Shown: positions 35,598 to 40,226, counted from the first letter of the stretch. The stretch: DNA of 43,218 bases from Campylobacteraceae bacterium (GCA_027050775.1 JALUBH010000048.1:1-43218); one strand, 5' to 3'. A program made the numbers and translations. The notes: generated by a model from the sequence alone, not told the origin.

Positions 35598-36754
35598 GCC
35601 TTTGGAAAGATAAGAAAAAATGTAGTTTTTTTATTGGGTATGGATTCTACTTCTATCTTTATATTGTACTCATTGCAAACACTTTGGACTATGTCTAAGC
35701 CTATGCCAAAGCCTCCTTCACTCTTGCTCCTTCTTTCAAATCTTTTGAAGATTGCTTTTTGGTCATCTTCATTTATGCCCTCGCCCTCATTGATGATGCA
35801 AAGAGTATATTCCTTTAGTATTACCTCAATTTTGCTCTTTTGAAACGAATATTTCAGAGCATTTGAGAGAAGATTGTTGATAACTTTTTGGATTCTTGTT
35901 TTATCTAAAAAAACAGGAGTATTTTGGAGCGAACACTCTATGGTGTTTCCTCTACTTTTTACTATCTCATCAAAAAACCTAACACTCTCTTCAATCAACT
36001 CTTTTAAATCAAATTTTTCATCGTATCTGTCATCTATATCATTAAATGCTACAAAGGAGAGAGTATTGTAGATTTGAGAAATCAGTTTTGCACTAACAGA
36101 TATATGGTTTAAAACTCTAGGGTTTAACTCTTTTGAATTTTTAATGGAAGATGTACTCATAATGAGTGCCGATACGGGGGTATTTAGCTCATGCGAACTG
36201 TCTCTTATAAATCGATTTAATTTTTTTATTCTATCGCGAATGGGCTTTAAGAGCACTTTGCTCAAAAGATACCCGACAAACAAAATAAAAACAACAGATG
36301 CAAACATAGTTGTTAAAATTATTGTGATTAGCTTAATCTTTTCACTCTTGCTTCCATCATTTTCAGCGACTATATAAGAAACACCCAAAATCGGAGTATC
36401 TAACTTGTGCACATGGTATTCGTGCCTATTATTTTTATAGGCTTTATTTGCAAAAAATATCTTGTTGTCTTTTAGGTTTGAGTATAAAACTTTCCCATTT
36501 TTATCGAACAAGCCAAGTCTTAATCTACCATTTTTAGGTGGTGTAAATTTATATATCTGTTTATTCATCTCAGCTTGCATAAGCTCTTTTTCGGCCATCA
36601 AAGAGGCATTTCTCATCTGGATACTACACTTGTCGCTGATCGAGACTATACCTCTGTTATAATATAAAAAAGCTATGATAGAAATAAGCACAAAAGCAGA
36701 GAGTGTATAGATGCCCAAAAAGCCAATCAGTGCCCTCTTCTCTTCTTTATTCAA
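35594..36754 (-). CDS. Sensor histidine kinase (pair 2)
   Basis: 386 residues. Membrane helices at about 10-33 and 141-165 enclose a ~105-residue periplasmic sensor region. The phosphoacceptor is H188 in DSSHELNTPVSAL; the N box is NNLLSNALKYSFQ and the nucleotide-binding boxes are NEGEGI and GFGIGLDIVQS. It overlaps its regulator by 8 bases. Paralogous to the kinase at 799-1860: both share HxLNTPV and a similar length. The signal is unknown. Confidence 0.92.
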   Translation of the reverse strand: MNKEEKRALIGFLGIYTLSAFVLISIIAFLYYNRGIVSISDKCSIQMRNASLMAEKELMQAEMNKQIYKFTPPKNGRLRLGLFDKNGKVLYSNLKDNKIFFANKAYKNNRHEYHVHKLDTPILGVSYIVAENDGSKSEKIKLITIILTTMFASVVFILFVGYLLSKVLLKPIRDRIKKLNRFIRDSSHELNTPVSALIMSTSSIKNSKELNPRVLNHISVSAKLISQIYNTLSFVAFNDIDDRYDEKFDLKELIEESVRFFDEIVKSRGNTIECSLQNTPVFLDKTRIQKVINNLLSNALKYSFQKSKIEVILKEYTLCIINEGEGINEDDQKAIFKRFERRSKSEGGFGIGLDIVQSVCNEYNIKIEVESIPNKKTTFFLIFPKA

Positions 36755-37403
36755 AAAAGTACCCGCTTCCCCGTATGGTTTTGATTCTCTCTTTGCCGAC
36801 TATATTTCTAAGGTTTCTTATATAGACTCTGATTGTTGCATCTGTCGGCATCTCTTCAAATTCCCACAGATTTTGAATCAACTCATCTCCGGATATGACT
36901 CTTTTTTTTCTGCTTGTTAGATAGAGTAGTATCTCTATCTCTTTTTTTGCAAGTTGGTGCTCTACTCCATCTATGCTTAATAGGTTTTTAGAGGGAATCA
37001 TATACATCGCTTCATCAATCTTCACGATATTATCATTTTCTATGCTAAACCTCTTCTTGATATTATTTATCCGCAAATCCAACTCTTCTAAATCAAAAGG
37101 CTTCTTTATATAATCATCACAGCCATTTTCAAATCCGTTTTTGAGATGTTTAGTATCTTGATAGGCAGTGATGAGTATAGCAGGAGTCATATCGTTATAC
37201 TCCCTGATACTCTTTATCACATCGAGCCCGCTTACCTTTGGGACATTTATATCTAATATCATTAAATCAAATGTATTTGAACTCACCTCTTCCAAAGCTT
37301 TCGCACCATCATCTACATGTAAAACTTCGTAAGATAACTCCTTTAGATGATGGTAGAGTATATCTGCTAGCATAAAATCATCTTCAAGAAGCAAAATTCT
37401 CAT
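36747..37403 (-). CDS. OmpR-family response regulator (pair 2)
   Basis: 218 residues from the ATG at 37403, where the receiver begins (MRILLLEDDF) and GGGGA lies 8 bases upstream. A longer frame from 37451 would read through the structured leader and is rejected. Phosphoacceptor D51 in MILDINVP, Lys in DDYIKKPFD; a winged-helix domain ends IKTIRGSGYFFE. It carries the near-palindrome ATCTACATGTAAAA at VLHVDD. Its 5' leader is one of the repeated structured elements described in findings. Confidence 0.92.
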   Translation of the reverse strand: MRILLLEDDFMLADILYHHLKELSYEVLHVDDGAKALEEVSSNTFDLMILDINVPKVSGLDVIKSIREYNDMTPAILITAYQDTKHLKNGFENGCDDYIKKPFDLEELDLRINNIKKRFSIENDNIVKIDEAMYMIPSKNLLSIDGVEHQLAKKEIEILLYLTSRKKRVISGDELIQNLWEFEEMPTDATIRVYIRNLRNIVGKERIKTIRGSGYFFE

Positions 37404-37485
37404 TTTATGTCCCCTTTTTGTGGAAGTAAATTCCGCTAAAATTCCTCGCACTTATGCTACGGCTGTCGCCGAGAAATTACTATTT
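37404..37485 (-). promoter_or_regulatory. Repeated structured leader, copy 1 (before the pair 2 regulator)
   Basis: Read on the minus strand: TATAAT at 37500-37495, then about 80 bases of leader ending in GGGGACATAAA and the regulator ATG. An inner hairpin CGGC-GACA-GCCG (37471-37460) is enclosed by an imperfect stem AATTTCTC/GAGGAATT (37478-37471 with 37447-37440). A second hairpin (37441-37431 with 37425-37415, two mismatches) sits against the ribosome-binding site. It is close to copies 2 and 3 in sequence and shape. Confidence 0.7.
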
Positions 37486-37533
37486 ATTTTGTATATTATA
37501 ACAATTATATTTAGTTTTTGTGTAATCTTAAGC

Positions 37534-38457
37534 TTATTCCATCGGCTCACCTGTTTCCATCGGTAAATTTGTCCTTGAATACTCAACCATACTGCCATCA
37601 AAAACTTGTACATTTTTCATCCCAATTAGAAATCTTGAGACGAACCAAAGTCCTCTAGCTTTGTGCCCGGTGTTACAATATGTGATCAAGGGCTTATCAA
37701 GTTCTACACCATATCCGCTATTGTGCAAAGTCTTTTTTGCCTCTTTTGGTGAGATTAACTCAAAGTATTTTCCCATATTTTTTGTATATCTTATGACAGG
37801 TGTTAGTTTTGCTGTTGGGATTCTTCCGTGTCTCGCCAAATCTTTTCTTTTGTCGCTTCCTGTATAAAATTTTGAAACTCTCGCATCTGTAATCTGTTTA
37901 TCTTCATCATAAATAGCCTCATTTATATCGCTAAGAGAAGCTATTATACTCCCATCATATCTATCCAACTCTATATCACTCTTTGCGATCTTTGGCAGCT
38001 TGCTTGTAACATCTCTTTTTTCAAAACTCCATTTTGCATATCCACCATTTAAAAGTGCACTCTTTTGGATGCCATATAGCCATAAATTCCATATGCCGCT
38101 TGCCGCGTCTGCAAAGTCTTTGTTTTTCTCTCCTGCGCTATAGAAGATTATCGCACTATCTTCACTAACGCCGGCATCTTGTAACATCTTTTGTACTTGT
38201 TCTAGTGTGCTCGGGAGCTTTGGGATATTTCCAAGTTTTCCTTTAAAAAATGATTTTTTAGGGTAATTTATAGCGCCTTTTATATGAGACTTTTTATAGG
38301 CTTCCGGTTTTCTTGTATCTATGATCACTAGATTCTTACTGCCTAGATTTTTTTGCAACCAATTAGTAGACACTATATGATTTTGTGGAATTTGCAAAGC
38401 AAACAGAGCGGTTGAGAAAGCTAGAACTATCATGATTTTTCGTATGATACTTTTCAT
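37534..38457 (-). CDS. Periplasmic two-domain rhodanese (thiosulfate sulfurtransferase-like)
   Basis: 307 residues with a signal peptide (~1-20, IMIVLAFSTALFALQ). The first rhodanese domain (~30-150) has a catalytic loop without Cys (FYSAGEKN); the second (~165-300) has the active Cys in ITYCNTGHKARG. It would transfer sulfane sulfur in the periplasm, fitting a sulfur-oxidising lifestyle. It is divergent from an ArsR regulator with palindromic sites between them. The sulfur donor cannot be told from sequence. Confidence 0.88.
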   Translation of the reverse strand: MKSIIRKIMIVLAFSTALFALQIPQNHIVSTNWLQKNLGSKNLVIIDTRKPEAYKKSHIKGAINYPKKSFFKGKLGNIPKLPSTLEQVQKMLQDAGVSEDSAIIFYSAGEKNKDFADAASGIWNLWLYGIQKSALLNGGYAKWSFEKRDVTSKLPKIAKSDIELDRYDGSIIASLSDINEAIYDEDKQITDARVSKFYTGSDKRKDLARHGRIPTAKLTPVIRYTKNMGKYFELISPKEAKKTLHNSGYGVELDKPLITYCNTGHKARGLWFVSRFLIGMKNVQVFDGSMVEYSRTNLPMETGEPME

Positions 38458-38484
38458 TTTAATTTCCTTACATAAGATAATATT

Positions 38485-38504
38485 ATTTAGCTAATATGCT
38501 AAAT
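38485..38504. promoter_or_regulatory. ArsR operator 1 (rhodanese side)
   Basis: ATTTAGC (38485-38491) and GCTAAAT (38498-38504) are a perfect 7-bp dyad with centre TAATAT. It lies 28 bases before the rhodanese start, where its promoter should be. A second dyad of the same sequence is found at 38547-38558. Confidence 0.65.
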
Positions 38505-38546
38505 AGATTTGGTATGGTACACAAATCGATAAAAATTGTCAATGTT

Positions 38547-38558
38547 ATTTAGCTAAAT
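38547..38558. promoter_or_regulatory. ArsR operator 2 (regulator side)
   Basis: ATTTAGCTAAAT, a perfect 12-bp palindrome with the same half site as operator 1 but no spacer. It precedes a TATACT box (38572-38577) for the arsR-type gene. Confidence 0.65.
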
Positions 38559-38604
38559 TACAAATAAATGCTATACTTTCAAAATAAGAAAAGAGGTGAT
38601 TGAT

Positions 38605-38967
38605 ATGTTAGATACGAAACAAAAGATAAAAATTTTTAAAGCACTCGGCAATGAAACAAGATTTTTAATTTTCAAAAACATATTTACAGGTGGCTATGCC
38701 TGTTCCATCGACGAAACAAAACCAAAAAATGACATCATAGCACAAGCTACTTGCGTCACTACTATAGCTGAGCATTTTGACTTTGCTTTACCTACTATCT
38801 CTAGGCATTTAAAAGAGCTAAGAGATGCGGACATAATAAAAATGACCAAAAAAAGCAATAAAATCTATATAGAACCAAACCCAAAAATCATAAAAGAGCT
38901 ATCAGCTTGCTTCACAACACTCGTCGATAACTACAAAGCATCAAGTTTTCAATTTGATAATAGATAA
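38605..38967 (+). CDS. ArsR-family transcriptional regulator, candidate sulfur sensor
   Basis: 120 residues from the ATG at 38605, with GAGGTGAT just upstream; the GTG at 38596 lies inside that site. Winged helix with the recognition helix ALPTISRHLKELRDADII and wing MTKKSNKIYIE. Cys at 33, 50 and 102: the last lies in the C-terminal helix, as does one of the two reactive Cys of persulfide sensors SqrR/BigR, and no ArsR-type ELCVCDL metal motif is present. Together with the divergent rhodanese this suggests control by reactive sulfur; that is inference. Confidence 0.8.
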   Translation: MLDTKQKIKIFKALGNETRFLIFKNIFTGGYACSIDETKPKNDIIAQATCVTTIAEHFDFALPTISRHLKELRDADIIKMTKKSNKIYIEPNPKIIKELSACFTTLVDNYKASSFQFDNR

Positions 38968-38970
38968 AAG

Positions 38971-39192
38971 CTAAAATATTTCATCAGACACATCATCCAC
39001 ATGCCCTTTTTTTCCATTTTTTATATGAATCCAGGTTACCGGCACAGCAATTAATGCGGATATAATTATAAAATATAAAAAGTTAAACACCATATAAGCA
39101 TAATAATCCACGATACCTAAAATTACGACAAAAAGCACAAAATATGTTAAAAATAACTTGGCAAACTTCTTAGATAAAACTCTATTTTTCAT
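38971..39192 (-). CDS. Small two-helix membrane protein
   Basis: 73 residues, two hydrophobic stretches (~12-33 and ~36-55), charged tail rich in Lys then Asp/Glu. It overlaps the gene before it by 11 bases, implying coupled translation. No family recognised. It ends 3 bases from the convergent arsR-type gene. Confidence 0.55.
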   Translation of the reverse strand: MKNRVLSKKFAKLFLTYFVLFVVILGIVDYYAYMVFNFLYFIIISALIAVPVTWIHIKNGKKGHVDDVSDEIF

Positions 39193-39436
39193 TTTTTTCT
39201 ATCTGTCTTATCTTTCTAATCGCATTTTTTCTCACCAAATAGAACCCTATCATAGATAAAATTGTGATACCTATGTACTCCGGAGCGATTGATTTTATAT
39301 CTATATTTTTCTCCATGATATTCATCATATCTTTGGCGATATTCCAGCCACCAAACATAGTCAAAAGTACAAACATATAGTACCTAAATGGACTTCCTAC
39401 TACGAAGTACAACTCTGTTAACTGTGAATCTTTCAT
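39182..39436 (-). CDS. Small membrane protein behind repeated leader copy 2
   Basis: 84 residues with hydrophobic stretches at ~18-32 and ~52-67 and a basic C-terminus. Its ATG follows GGGGATATAAAA, the end of leader copy 2, and is the first codon after the structured element. It overlaps the next small membrane gene. Function unknown; the two probably form one small membrane complex. Confidence 0.6.
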   Translation of the reverse strand: MKDSQLTELYFVVGSPFRYYMFVLLTMFGGWNIAKDMMNIMEKNIDIKSIAPEYIGITILSMIGFYLVRKNAIRKIRQIEKNEK

Positions 39437-39520
39437 TTTTATATCCCCTTTTTACGGAAGTGAATTCCGTAAAAATTCCTCGCGACTAAAGCTTTGGCTA
39501 TCGCCAAGAAATTACTATTT
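39437..39520 (-). promoter_or_regulatory. Repeated structured leader, copy 2 (before the small membrane pair)
   Basis: On the minus strand a TATATA box (39527-39522) is followed by AAATAGTAATTTC, a hairpin TTGGC-GATA-GCCAA (39507-39494), the conserved GCGAGGAATT, and an 11-bp hairpin (39475-39465 with 39459-39449, loop TTCAC) directly before GGGGA. A further fragment with GAGC-GATA-GCTC and similar following bases lies at about 39526-39556. Confidence 0.72.
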
Positions 39521-39566
39521 TTATATACTGAAGCACGAGCTATCGCTCTGTATTTCTTTGTCTTAA

Positions 39567-39667
39567 TTCTTATGTCCCCTCTGCTCATAAATAGTTTTGC
39601 CCTTTTGAAAAAAATTTATGGGCAGATTCCTCGCACTTATGCTTTGACTATTACCAAGGAATTTTAT
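39567..39667 (-). promoter_or_regulatory. Repeated structured leader, copy 3 (no ORF of its own)
   Basis: On the minus strand TATAAT (39687-39682) precedes a hairpin TTGGT-AATA-GTCAA (39657-39644), the conserved AGCATAAGTGCGAGGAAT, and a longer hairpin of different sequence (39625-39614 with 39592-39581, one mismatch) before GGGGACATAA. No start codon follows in the expected place. This copy, the fragment and copy 2 fill the 352-base gap 39437-39788. Confidence 0.62.
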
Positions 39668-39788
39668 CAATTTTAATGCGTATTATAGCAGGTATATTTT
39701 ACTTTTTGATTATTTTTTGATTACTACACATAAAATGCACTTTATTTTGCTAAAATAAATCATATATTAAAAAATTTAAGGAGAATGC

Positions 39789-40226
39789 ATGAGATTGAAA
39801 GTTTTAATTTTGAGTTTGTTTGCTATTGTAGCTTTAAGTGCGGGGAATTTGACTATTAAAAGCAGTGTAAATTCGGTAAACAAAACGGTTGCAAAAATGC
39901 AAAAGATTATGAAGGCAAAGGGCATAACCGTGTTTAATGTCATAGACTTTAGAAAAGGCGCTAAAAGCATAGGTGCAGATATGACAAGTGCTAAGCTCAT
40001 CATCTTTGGAAATCCAAAACTTGGTACTAGAATCATGCAAAGAGATATAAAAGCGGCTATCGAGCTACCTATGAAGATCTTGGTATATAAAGATTTTGAC
40101 GGCAAGACAAAGATGGAGTATAAAGACCCGAAACAGTTAGAAAAAACATATGATTTGGCAGGATGTAGCGTCCTTCCTAAGATGTCAAATGCTTTGAATA
40201 AAATAACAACAAAAGCCGGAATGTAA
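39789..40226 (+). CDS. DUF302-family periplasmic protein
   Basis: 145 residues with a signal peptide (~1-18). The DUF302 fold shows in KLIIFGNPKLGTRIMQ, ELPMKILVYKDFDGKTKMEY and DPKQLEKTYDL. DUF302 proteins are small, widespread in sulfur bacteria and of unknown role; some are suspected ligand-binding proteins. The start has AAGGAG at 39778-39783. One Cys in DLAGCSVL. It is monocistronic. Confidence 0.8.
   Translation: MRLKVLILSLFAIVALSAGNLTIKSSVNSVNKTVAKMQKIMKAKGITVFNVIDFRKGAKSIGADMTSAKLIIFGNPKLGTRIMQRDIKAAIELPMKILVYKDFDGKTKMEYKDPKQLEKTYDLAGCSVLPKMSNALNKITTKAGM

Follow-up and report, generated by a model that had tools for sequence, protein, structure and literature searches.

What are the structured sequences that stand in front of otherwise unrelated genes on the minus strand of a Campylobacteraceae contig? 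The stretch analysed here (Campylobacteraceae bacterium, JALUBH010000048.1:1-43218 of assembly GCA_027050775.1; 43,218 nt, hereafter the window) was described in an earlier note as carrying three copies of a promoter plus structured 5′ leader, each before a different operon, which together would represent a mobile or duplicated cis-regulatory RNA. All three copies are found when the minus strand is read, and they occupy two loci rather than three: copy 1 stands alone, and copies 2 and 3 make up a single tandem array, with a half-unit between them and one operon behind. To judge from their sequence, structure and distribution, these copies belong to a dispersed repeat of Campylobacterales that probably inserts at stop-start junctions, where it would replace the ribosome-binding site and keep translational coupling.

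Size and spread of the family

A covariance model built from 30 copies, copy 2 among them, recovers copies 1, 2 and 3 with E-values of 7.5e-23, 4.8e-30 and 2.2e-11, respectively. As the same model matches 99 places in the 2.19 Mb genome to which the window belongs (cut-off E ≤ 0.1), grouped into 58 arrays of one to four units, the three copies are not a product of chance, and the covariance search that the earlier note had called for did yield further copies, here and in other genomes of the phylum. BLASTN with copy 1 gives 36 matches in this genome, and other genomes of the genus have as many as 34. With the covariance model, the relatives G005 and G006, with 107 candidates scored per genome, have at least 106 matches each and another genome of the genus has 15, and the counts are 0–3 in genus g3, 7–57 in g5 and 15–42 in g2. 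In an even draw of 298 genomes from the phylum, with 15 candidates scored per genome, 53 match at E ≤ 0.01, every one of them within the order Campylobacterales (some of the single matches at E ~ 0.001–0.01 may be due to chance); up to 12 copies are found in family f17 and 11 in f6. The named carriers of the exact core pattern are Campylobacterales metagenome-assembled genomes, for which the record names suggest an origin at deep-sea vents.

At the gathering threshold, Rfam recognises only a tRNA in the window and has no family for the repeat; the sub-threshold matches in the region (SNORD24 and RybB, the latter on the other strand, with E above 1) are at the level of chance. Additionally, a literature search found no description of this repeat family. 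We regard the repeats as an undescribed and unnamed family of about 80 nt, single or in tandem, with some 100 copies per genome in these bacteria.

Anatomy of a unit

A unit consists, in this order, of a bulged hairpin (H1), a conserved linker (C-UUYAGU-nGAGGAAU), a 10-bp hairpin (H2) and AGGGGA or AGGAGA, with a start codon typically 7 nt on. H1 follows the pattern C[U/A], 4–5 bp, a loop of 3–5 nt, one bulged nucleotide and [A/U]G-C, its second outer pair being U-A in what we call CT-type units and A-U in CA-type units. Over 72 distinct forms, its pairs comprise 285 Watson-Crick, 8 sense G-U, 1 A.C and 3 other, in a fit that takes the best hairpin per unit and forces a few odd ones. H2 has a 5-nt loop, mostly TTYAC or CTTTG, and 61 distinct 25-nt sequences give 542 Watson-Crick pairs, 30 sense G-U, 13 A.C and 25 other. 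In the 30 copies of the model, the two helices are 98.5% paired, with a covariation of 0.560 against 0.151 after shuffling; as these copies were picked for H1 pairing, support for this hairpin comes from the pair counts of the 72 forms. By these counts, the hairpin sequences are almost freely exchangeable, provided that pairing stays.

The structured leader of the earlier note is thus borne out by strong covariation in both hairpins, and the compensatory changes listed between the window copies are real, as are the sense G-U pairs that keep H1 of copy 3. There are two mismatches in H2 of copy 1, A.A and C.A, instead of one, and the outer stem supposedly closed by the conserved segment finds no support: the 5′ flank and GAGGAAT show no covariation, with 65.8% of cells paired in the 30 copies. 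Sense G-U pairs exceed A.C in the two hairpins together (38 vs 14, an excess inflated by related copies), which points to selection acting on the sense RNA and not alike on both DNA strands.

The GGGGA segment of the earlier note is present, as part of AGGGGA, and its identity is that of a Shine-Dalgarno sequence. In what we call the Y form, GGA occurs at both sides of H2 in 115 of 123 units and the 3′ end is mostly AGGGGA or AGGAGA. The other form of the 3′ half, Y′ (GAGCGTGAAT ... AGATGA), has neither GGA motif in 25 of 25 units; a GAGAGGAAU variant of the unit occurs as well. A start codon follows 4–9 nt after Y in 104/123 cases and after Y′ in 3/25 (p = 4e-12), and in several Y′ arrays an ordinary Shine-Dalgarno sequence and then a start are found 11–24 nt further. 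Consequently, as read from the sequences, the element has a Shine-Dalgarno sequence when it abuts a start codon and is without it when it does not.

Position relative to genes

In the genome of the window, a same-strand start lies no more than 30 nt away in 51 of the 58 arrays, and several of the remaining seven are gene-calling failures or Y′ arrays. A same-strand gene lies downstream of 54 arrays, and three cases with a downstream gene on the other strand look like gene-calling problems. Genes on both sides are co-directional in 44 arrays, of which 31 have the upstream gene within 40 nt, and 10 arrays follow a divergent gene. The genes downstream are unrelated housekeeping genes (fliQ, aroC, argF, guaA, purS, ddl, pdxA, dnaK, response regulators). 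In the more distant families, units precede hslV (two genomes), ispH, murI, rimO, msbA and trpB, and argF in genus g3; these names were read off the protein starts without a family search.

These positions do not agree with a promoter as part of the element. The TATAAT box is found before 5 of the 10 arrays that follow a divergent gene and before only 2 of the 31 operon-internal ones, which are the majority and do without a promoter; the TATATA of copy 2 sits in a flank shared with the gene start.

Two of the seven arrays without a same-strand start within 30 nt are degenerate units (L313:1262-1345 and L313:1537-1615) that stand among clustered tRNA genes (Gly, Leu, Cys, Ser). The second of them, decayed, is antisense to the tRNAs and is the sole antisense copy seen.

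Micro-ORFs between stop and start codons

A feature that the earlier note passed over is the presence of micro-ORFs (short open reading frames) that connect the stop codon of one gene with the start codon of the next. Such an ORF, or a chain of them, is found in 28 of 40 operon-internal arrays, where 7.9 ± 2.2 (maximum 14) are obtained when the units are shuffled with their dinucleotides kept (100 trials); in these 28, the stop codon overlaps or adjoins the next start, the arrangement by which termination-reinitiation is recognised. Some linking ORFs are short and start inside the unit, and multi-unit arrays can make one long ORF. Of 37 CA-type units whose left flank contains an ATG, 28 have an ORF that begins there and overlaps the next start codon as ATGA. 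In fact, several units (L074, with hemB - 28 codons - argF in G005, L085, L090, L277, L303 and, in family f6, L253) have the −4 overlap at both ends.

The distance from ATG to ATG in CA-type units is 2 mod 3 in 30/35 units, or in 10/15 distinct length combinations (p = 0.009), and the lengths of flank, H1, linker, H2 and spacer compensate one another. Since several units contain an internal frame shift and yet have their total length restored, it seems that the reading frame is kept rather than the peptide. A conserved protein as the product was discarded: three micro-ORF products, including one of 82 residues, gave no Pfam match of meaningful score, and the frame changes within some units with the total length maintained.

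In a relative (JALUXQ01, L078:1300), an upstream gene that is apparently a fumarate reductase/succinate dehydrogenase cytochrome b continues in frame across the unit, up to a stop 2 nt short of the next start, and thereby gains a repeat-encoded tail.

Bacterial gene pairs that overlap by ATGA are established cases of termination-reinitiation (PMC6728339), and the same −4 junction is seen here on both sides of a number of units. However, the known cases join ordinary genes, whereas in this family the intermediate ORF comes from a dispersed repeat and coupling is predicted.

Gain, loss and flank duplication

The hemB-argF junction carries three units in the genome of the window (G000), one in each of six relatives (G005, G011, G013, G015, G018, G024) and none in eleven members of the family (G001, G002, G003, G006, G007, G009, G012, G016, G019, G020, G022), where the distance from stop to start is −4 to +4 nt. 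In one of the latter, G003, the ArgF segment is 98% identical. The rnc-aroC and fliQ junctions present a similar mix of presence and absence, in a comparison that is incomplete. About 100 dispersed copies, presence and absence at orthologous junctions and changes in tandem copy number all agree with "mobile or duplicated" in the earlier note.

The left and right flanks resemble each other more than expected (7.60 vs 6.54 ± 0.17 when permuted; 77 solitary copies), and the shared stretch often includes the start codon, for instance AATAAAATGAATAAT at L056, AATAAGATGAAATT at L085 and ATATAAAAAT at copy 2 of the window. The shared stretches vary in length, from about 8 to 15 nt. From the sequence, this looks like target site duplication of variable length; part of the signal could come from tandem duplication.

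A model for the family and its alternatives

From structure, family size, bias in position and sense, the Shine-Dalgarno sequence, frame preservation and the presence or absence of units between relatives, we infer insertion at the junction, duplication of the start codon, translation of the micro-ORF and reinitiation. In this model, the unit would insert in sense at stop-start junctions, mostly within operons, and a short stretch around the start codon would be duplicated, so that the original start codon survives to the left of the unit and a second one arises to its right. From the original codon, a micro-ORF of typically 27–31 codons would extend across the unit and terminate at or close to the second one (ATGA overlap). 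Ribosomes ending the upstream gene would translate the micro-ORF and reinitiate downstream by means of the unit's Shine-Dalgarno sequence, and the unit would be tolerated, or even useful, as the operon stays translated and coupled. It may be conjectured, moreover, that passing ribosomes open the stem-loops, which would fold when translation stops and so make the coupling strict. A more tentative extension, to which we give somewhat less than an even chance, is that of a mobile "coupling cassette" with overlapping stop-start junctions as its target, which would duplicate the start codon and bring in a structured micro-ORF that has its own Shine-Dalgarno sequence; translation of the next gene would then become, or remain, strictly dependent on that of the previous one.

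Several observations weigh against this model. ORF chains are missing from 12 of the 40 operon-internal arrays, so that coupling is not general; 79 of 92 CT-type units are without a left ATG, and copy 1 of the window has no ATG-started linking ORF. Patchy presence could also reflect ancestral presence followed by repeated loss, and the copy counts are not independent events. Furthermore, an autonomous element or enzyme for the family was looked for and not found. RAYT was considered as the mover and rejected, as rayt genes bear another repeat: the element is in none of 15 rayt-like loci (L208-L222) within 260 nt on either side, and many of them have a different inverted repeat. Reverse transcriptase was also rejected, being absent from the genome of the window and patchy in relatives. 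There are no matches to the element among phages, plasmids and viral contigs, and, on inspection, the right ends (GGGGACANTAAA) do not repeat the left ends (TTACAG, TAGTAATTTCT) in inverted orientation, no dedicated search having been made.

A purely selfish repeat, similar to REP, BOX or miniature inverted-repeat transposable elements (MITEs), would leave the position at starts and the sense orientation as a residue of purifying selection, because only start-adjacent sense insertions keep the downstream gene expressed, and the micro-ORFs as a by-product. This would account for copy numbers between 0 and more than 100 in relatives, for tandem expansion and patchy presence at orthologous junctions, and for neighbours without a common function. 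Nevertheless, selfish repeats tend to gather where the damage is smallest, as BOX, RUP and SPRITE favour convergent gene ends (PMC3049150), and here nearly all arrays have a same-strand gene downstream; the only antisense copy is the decayed one of the tRNA cluster, and length changes that compensate one another in frame are unexpected for a by-product. We consider this explanation unlikely, although it is the strongest of the alternatives. That the element is instead a cis-regulatory RNA, or resembles a riboswitch, and was copied to put many genes under one signal seems improbable. Strong covariation, the excess of sense G-U, conserved unpaired residues, a Shine-Dalgarno sequence beside a hairpin and the same place in front of argF (several genera) and of hslV (two genomes) are what such an RNA would display, but the downstream genes share no theme or single pathway, H1, H2 and their loops are freely swapped, unlike a ligand pocket, and the same junctions occur without the element. 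Thus, "cis-regulatory" in the earlier note is unlikely in the sense of a switch, given the many unrelated genes behind the 58 arrays; because of these genes and of the junctions that gain or lose units, a dispersed repeat is to be preferred to a ligand riboswitch. Finally, the GGA motifs that flank H2, the second of them over the Shine-Dalgarno sequence, could be bridged by a CsrA dimer that represses translation, and their joint presence in Y units and joint loss in Y′ units would be consistent with this, as would the CsrA that the genome of the window has. However, the loss in Y′ is also explained by the avoidance of spurious Shine-Dalgarno sequences, and no CsrA was found in seven of seven tested carriers of family f6 (including G219, with 11 copies, and the one-contig G258, G262 and G297), which makes a role of this protein very improbable.

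Comparison with known repeats

The pneumococcal repeats BOX, RUP and SPRITE occur preferentially between convergent genes, and BOX is modular, with a variable number of modules, some large elements forming expressed ORFs (PMC3049150). The family described here is likewise small, dispersed and structured, with a BOX-like modularity and copy-number variation between relatives, a likeness by description that implies no relation in sequence. By contrast, those repeats are not tied to start codons, whereas the present units are in sense directly before starts, carry a Shine-Dalgarno sequence and link ORFs, and most arrays lie between co-directional genes, with no enrichment between convergent ones.

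REP sequences (PMC2817692) are also short palindromic extragenic repeats with many copies and compensatory changes, and RAYT-like Y1 transposases occur in these genomes. However, it is another inverted repeat, GGGGTCAGGGCTAAACTT, that flanks the RAYT genes of these genomes, the GTAG/GTGG head is not found, there being no common head over the 72 H1 forms, and REP arrays alternate in orientation, which the present units do not. The RAYT-like Y1 transposase genes (for instance, L213 and L219) often have an inverted repeat, AGGGGTCAGGGCTAAACTT...AAGTTTAGCCCTGACCCC, on their flanks, which is probably RAYT's own REP-like sequence.

The enterobacterial RU units measure 103–168 bp, are MITE-like and are found inside genes too (PMC2759123). 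The family resembles these and ERIC-type repeats in being small, mobile and intergenic and in having ORFs that can be fused to genes, but its ORFs end at or close to the next start codon and it is the total length, not the peptide, that is kept. By analogy, the family acts most like a small interspersed repeat, with a distribution opposite to that of BOX, RUP and SPRITE: it is a repeat family built around translation starts.

The loci of the window

The features of both loci are collected in Table 1. The copy 1 locus precedes a response regulator/histidine kinase pair, and the TATAAT before it is probably the promoter of that transcription unit and lies outside the element.

Table 1. Repeat units and associated features in the window (positions count from its first letter)
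Feature	Position	Strand	Basis	Remark
Copy 1, whole match	37402-37479	-	covariance model
Copy 1 H1, CT-type stem-loop	37457-37473	-	read in sequence	CU-CGGC-GACA-GCCG-U bulge-AG
Copy 1 linker	37441-37456	-	read in sequence	CATAAGT + conserved GCGAGGAAT
Copy 1 H2, stem-loop of 25 nt	37416-37440	-	read in sequence	two mismatches
Copy 1 AGGGGA	37410-37415	-		Shine-Dalgarno sequence of response regulator gene; ATG 37403-37401
Gene after copy 1	36747-37403	-		OmpR-type response regulator, PF00072 + PF00486
TATAAT box	37495-37500	-		upstream of copy 1
Copy 2, whole match	39436-39514	-	covariance model
Copy 2 H1, CT-type stem-loop	39492-39508	-		CU-UGGC-GAUA-GCCA-A bulge-AG
Copy 2 linker	39475-39491	-		CTTTAGTC + GCGAGGAAT
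Copy 2 H2, 10-bp stem	39450-39474	-		no mismatch; loop TTCAC
Copy 2 AGGGGA	39444-39449	-		Shine-Dalgarno sequence of 84-aa membrane-protein gene; ATG 39436-39434
Gene after copy 2	39182-39436	-		predicted membrane protein, 84 aa, no Pfam match
Copy 2 left flank	39517-39526	-		ATATAAAAAT, resembles target site duplication; exact repeat at gene start
Copy 2 right flank	39435-39444	-		ATATAAAAAT, overlaps start codon
Half-unit between copies 3 and 2	39527-39550	-		CA-type H1 (CAGAGCGATAGCTCGTG) + CTTCAGT, no H2
Copy 3, whole match	39567-39664	-	covariance model
Copy 3 H1, CT-type stem-loop	39642-39658	-		two G-U pairs
Copy 3 linker	39626-39641	-		CATAAGT + GCGAGGAAT
Copy 3 long H2 variant	39581-39625	-		CTGCCCATAAAT...ATTTATGAGCAG; akin to forms at aroC and fliQ in relatives
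Copy 3 AGGGGA	39575-39580	-		array-internal, no ATG after it
TATAAT box	39682-39687	-		upstream of copy 3/copy 2 array
49-codon ORF	39439-39588	-		across copy 3 end, half-unit and copy 2; ends 2 nt before downstream gene; candidate coupling micro-ORF

As for the long H2 of copy 3, another small palindromic repeat may sit nested inside the hairpin. A further palindromic repeat region (GGGACTAAAGTCCCT, GCAGAACTTTTCGAGAAAAAAGTGCATAAGG), possibly another repeat family, lies upstream of a unit at L051:1600-1700. Around the arrays of the window (37534-40226) are a rhodanese gene, an ArsR-type regulator on the opposite strand, two small membrane proteins and a DUF302 gene, a set that may form a sulfur-related cluster.

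Implications

Small interspersed repeats are usually regarded as neutral debris or accidental regulators. The family described here is spread over an order, is not in Rfam and is fixed to translation starts, and its operon micro-ORFs appear to bridge gene junctions. It adds leader ORFs that gene finders likely mis-annotate and it raises a puzzle of mobility, namely how a sequence with exchangeable hairpins reaches start codons in a single orientation. The family would also offer dozens of natural experiments on translational coupling per genome. If true, the "coupling cassette" would represent a class of mobile elements defined by translation and not by its DNA ends.

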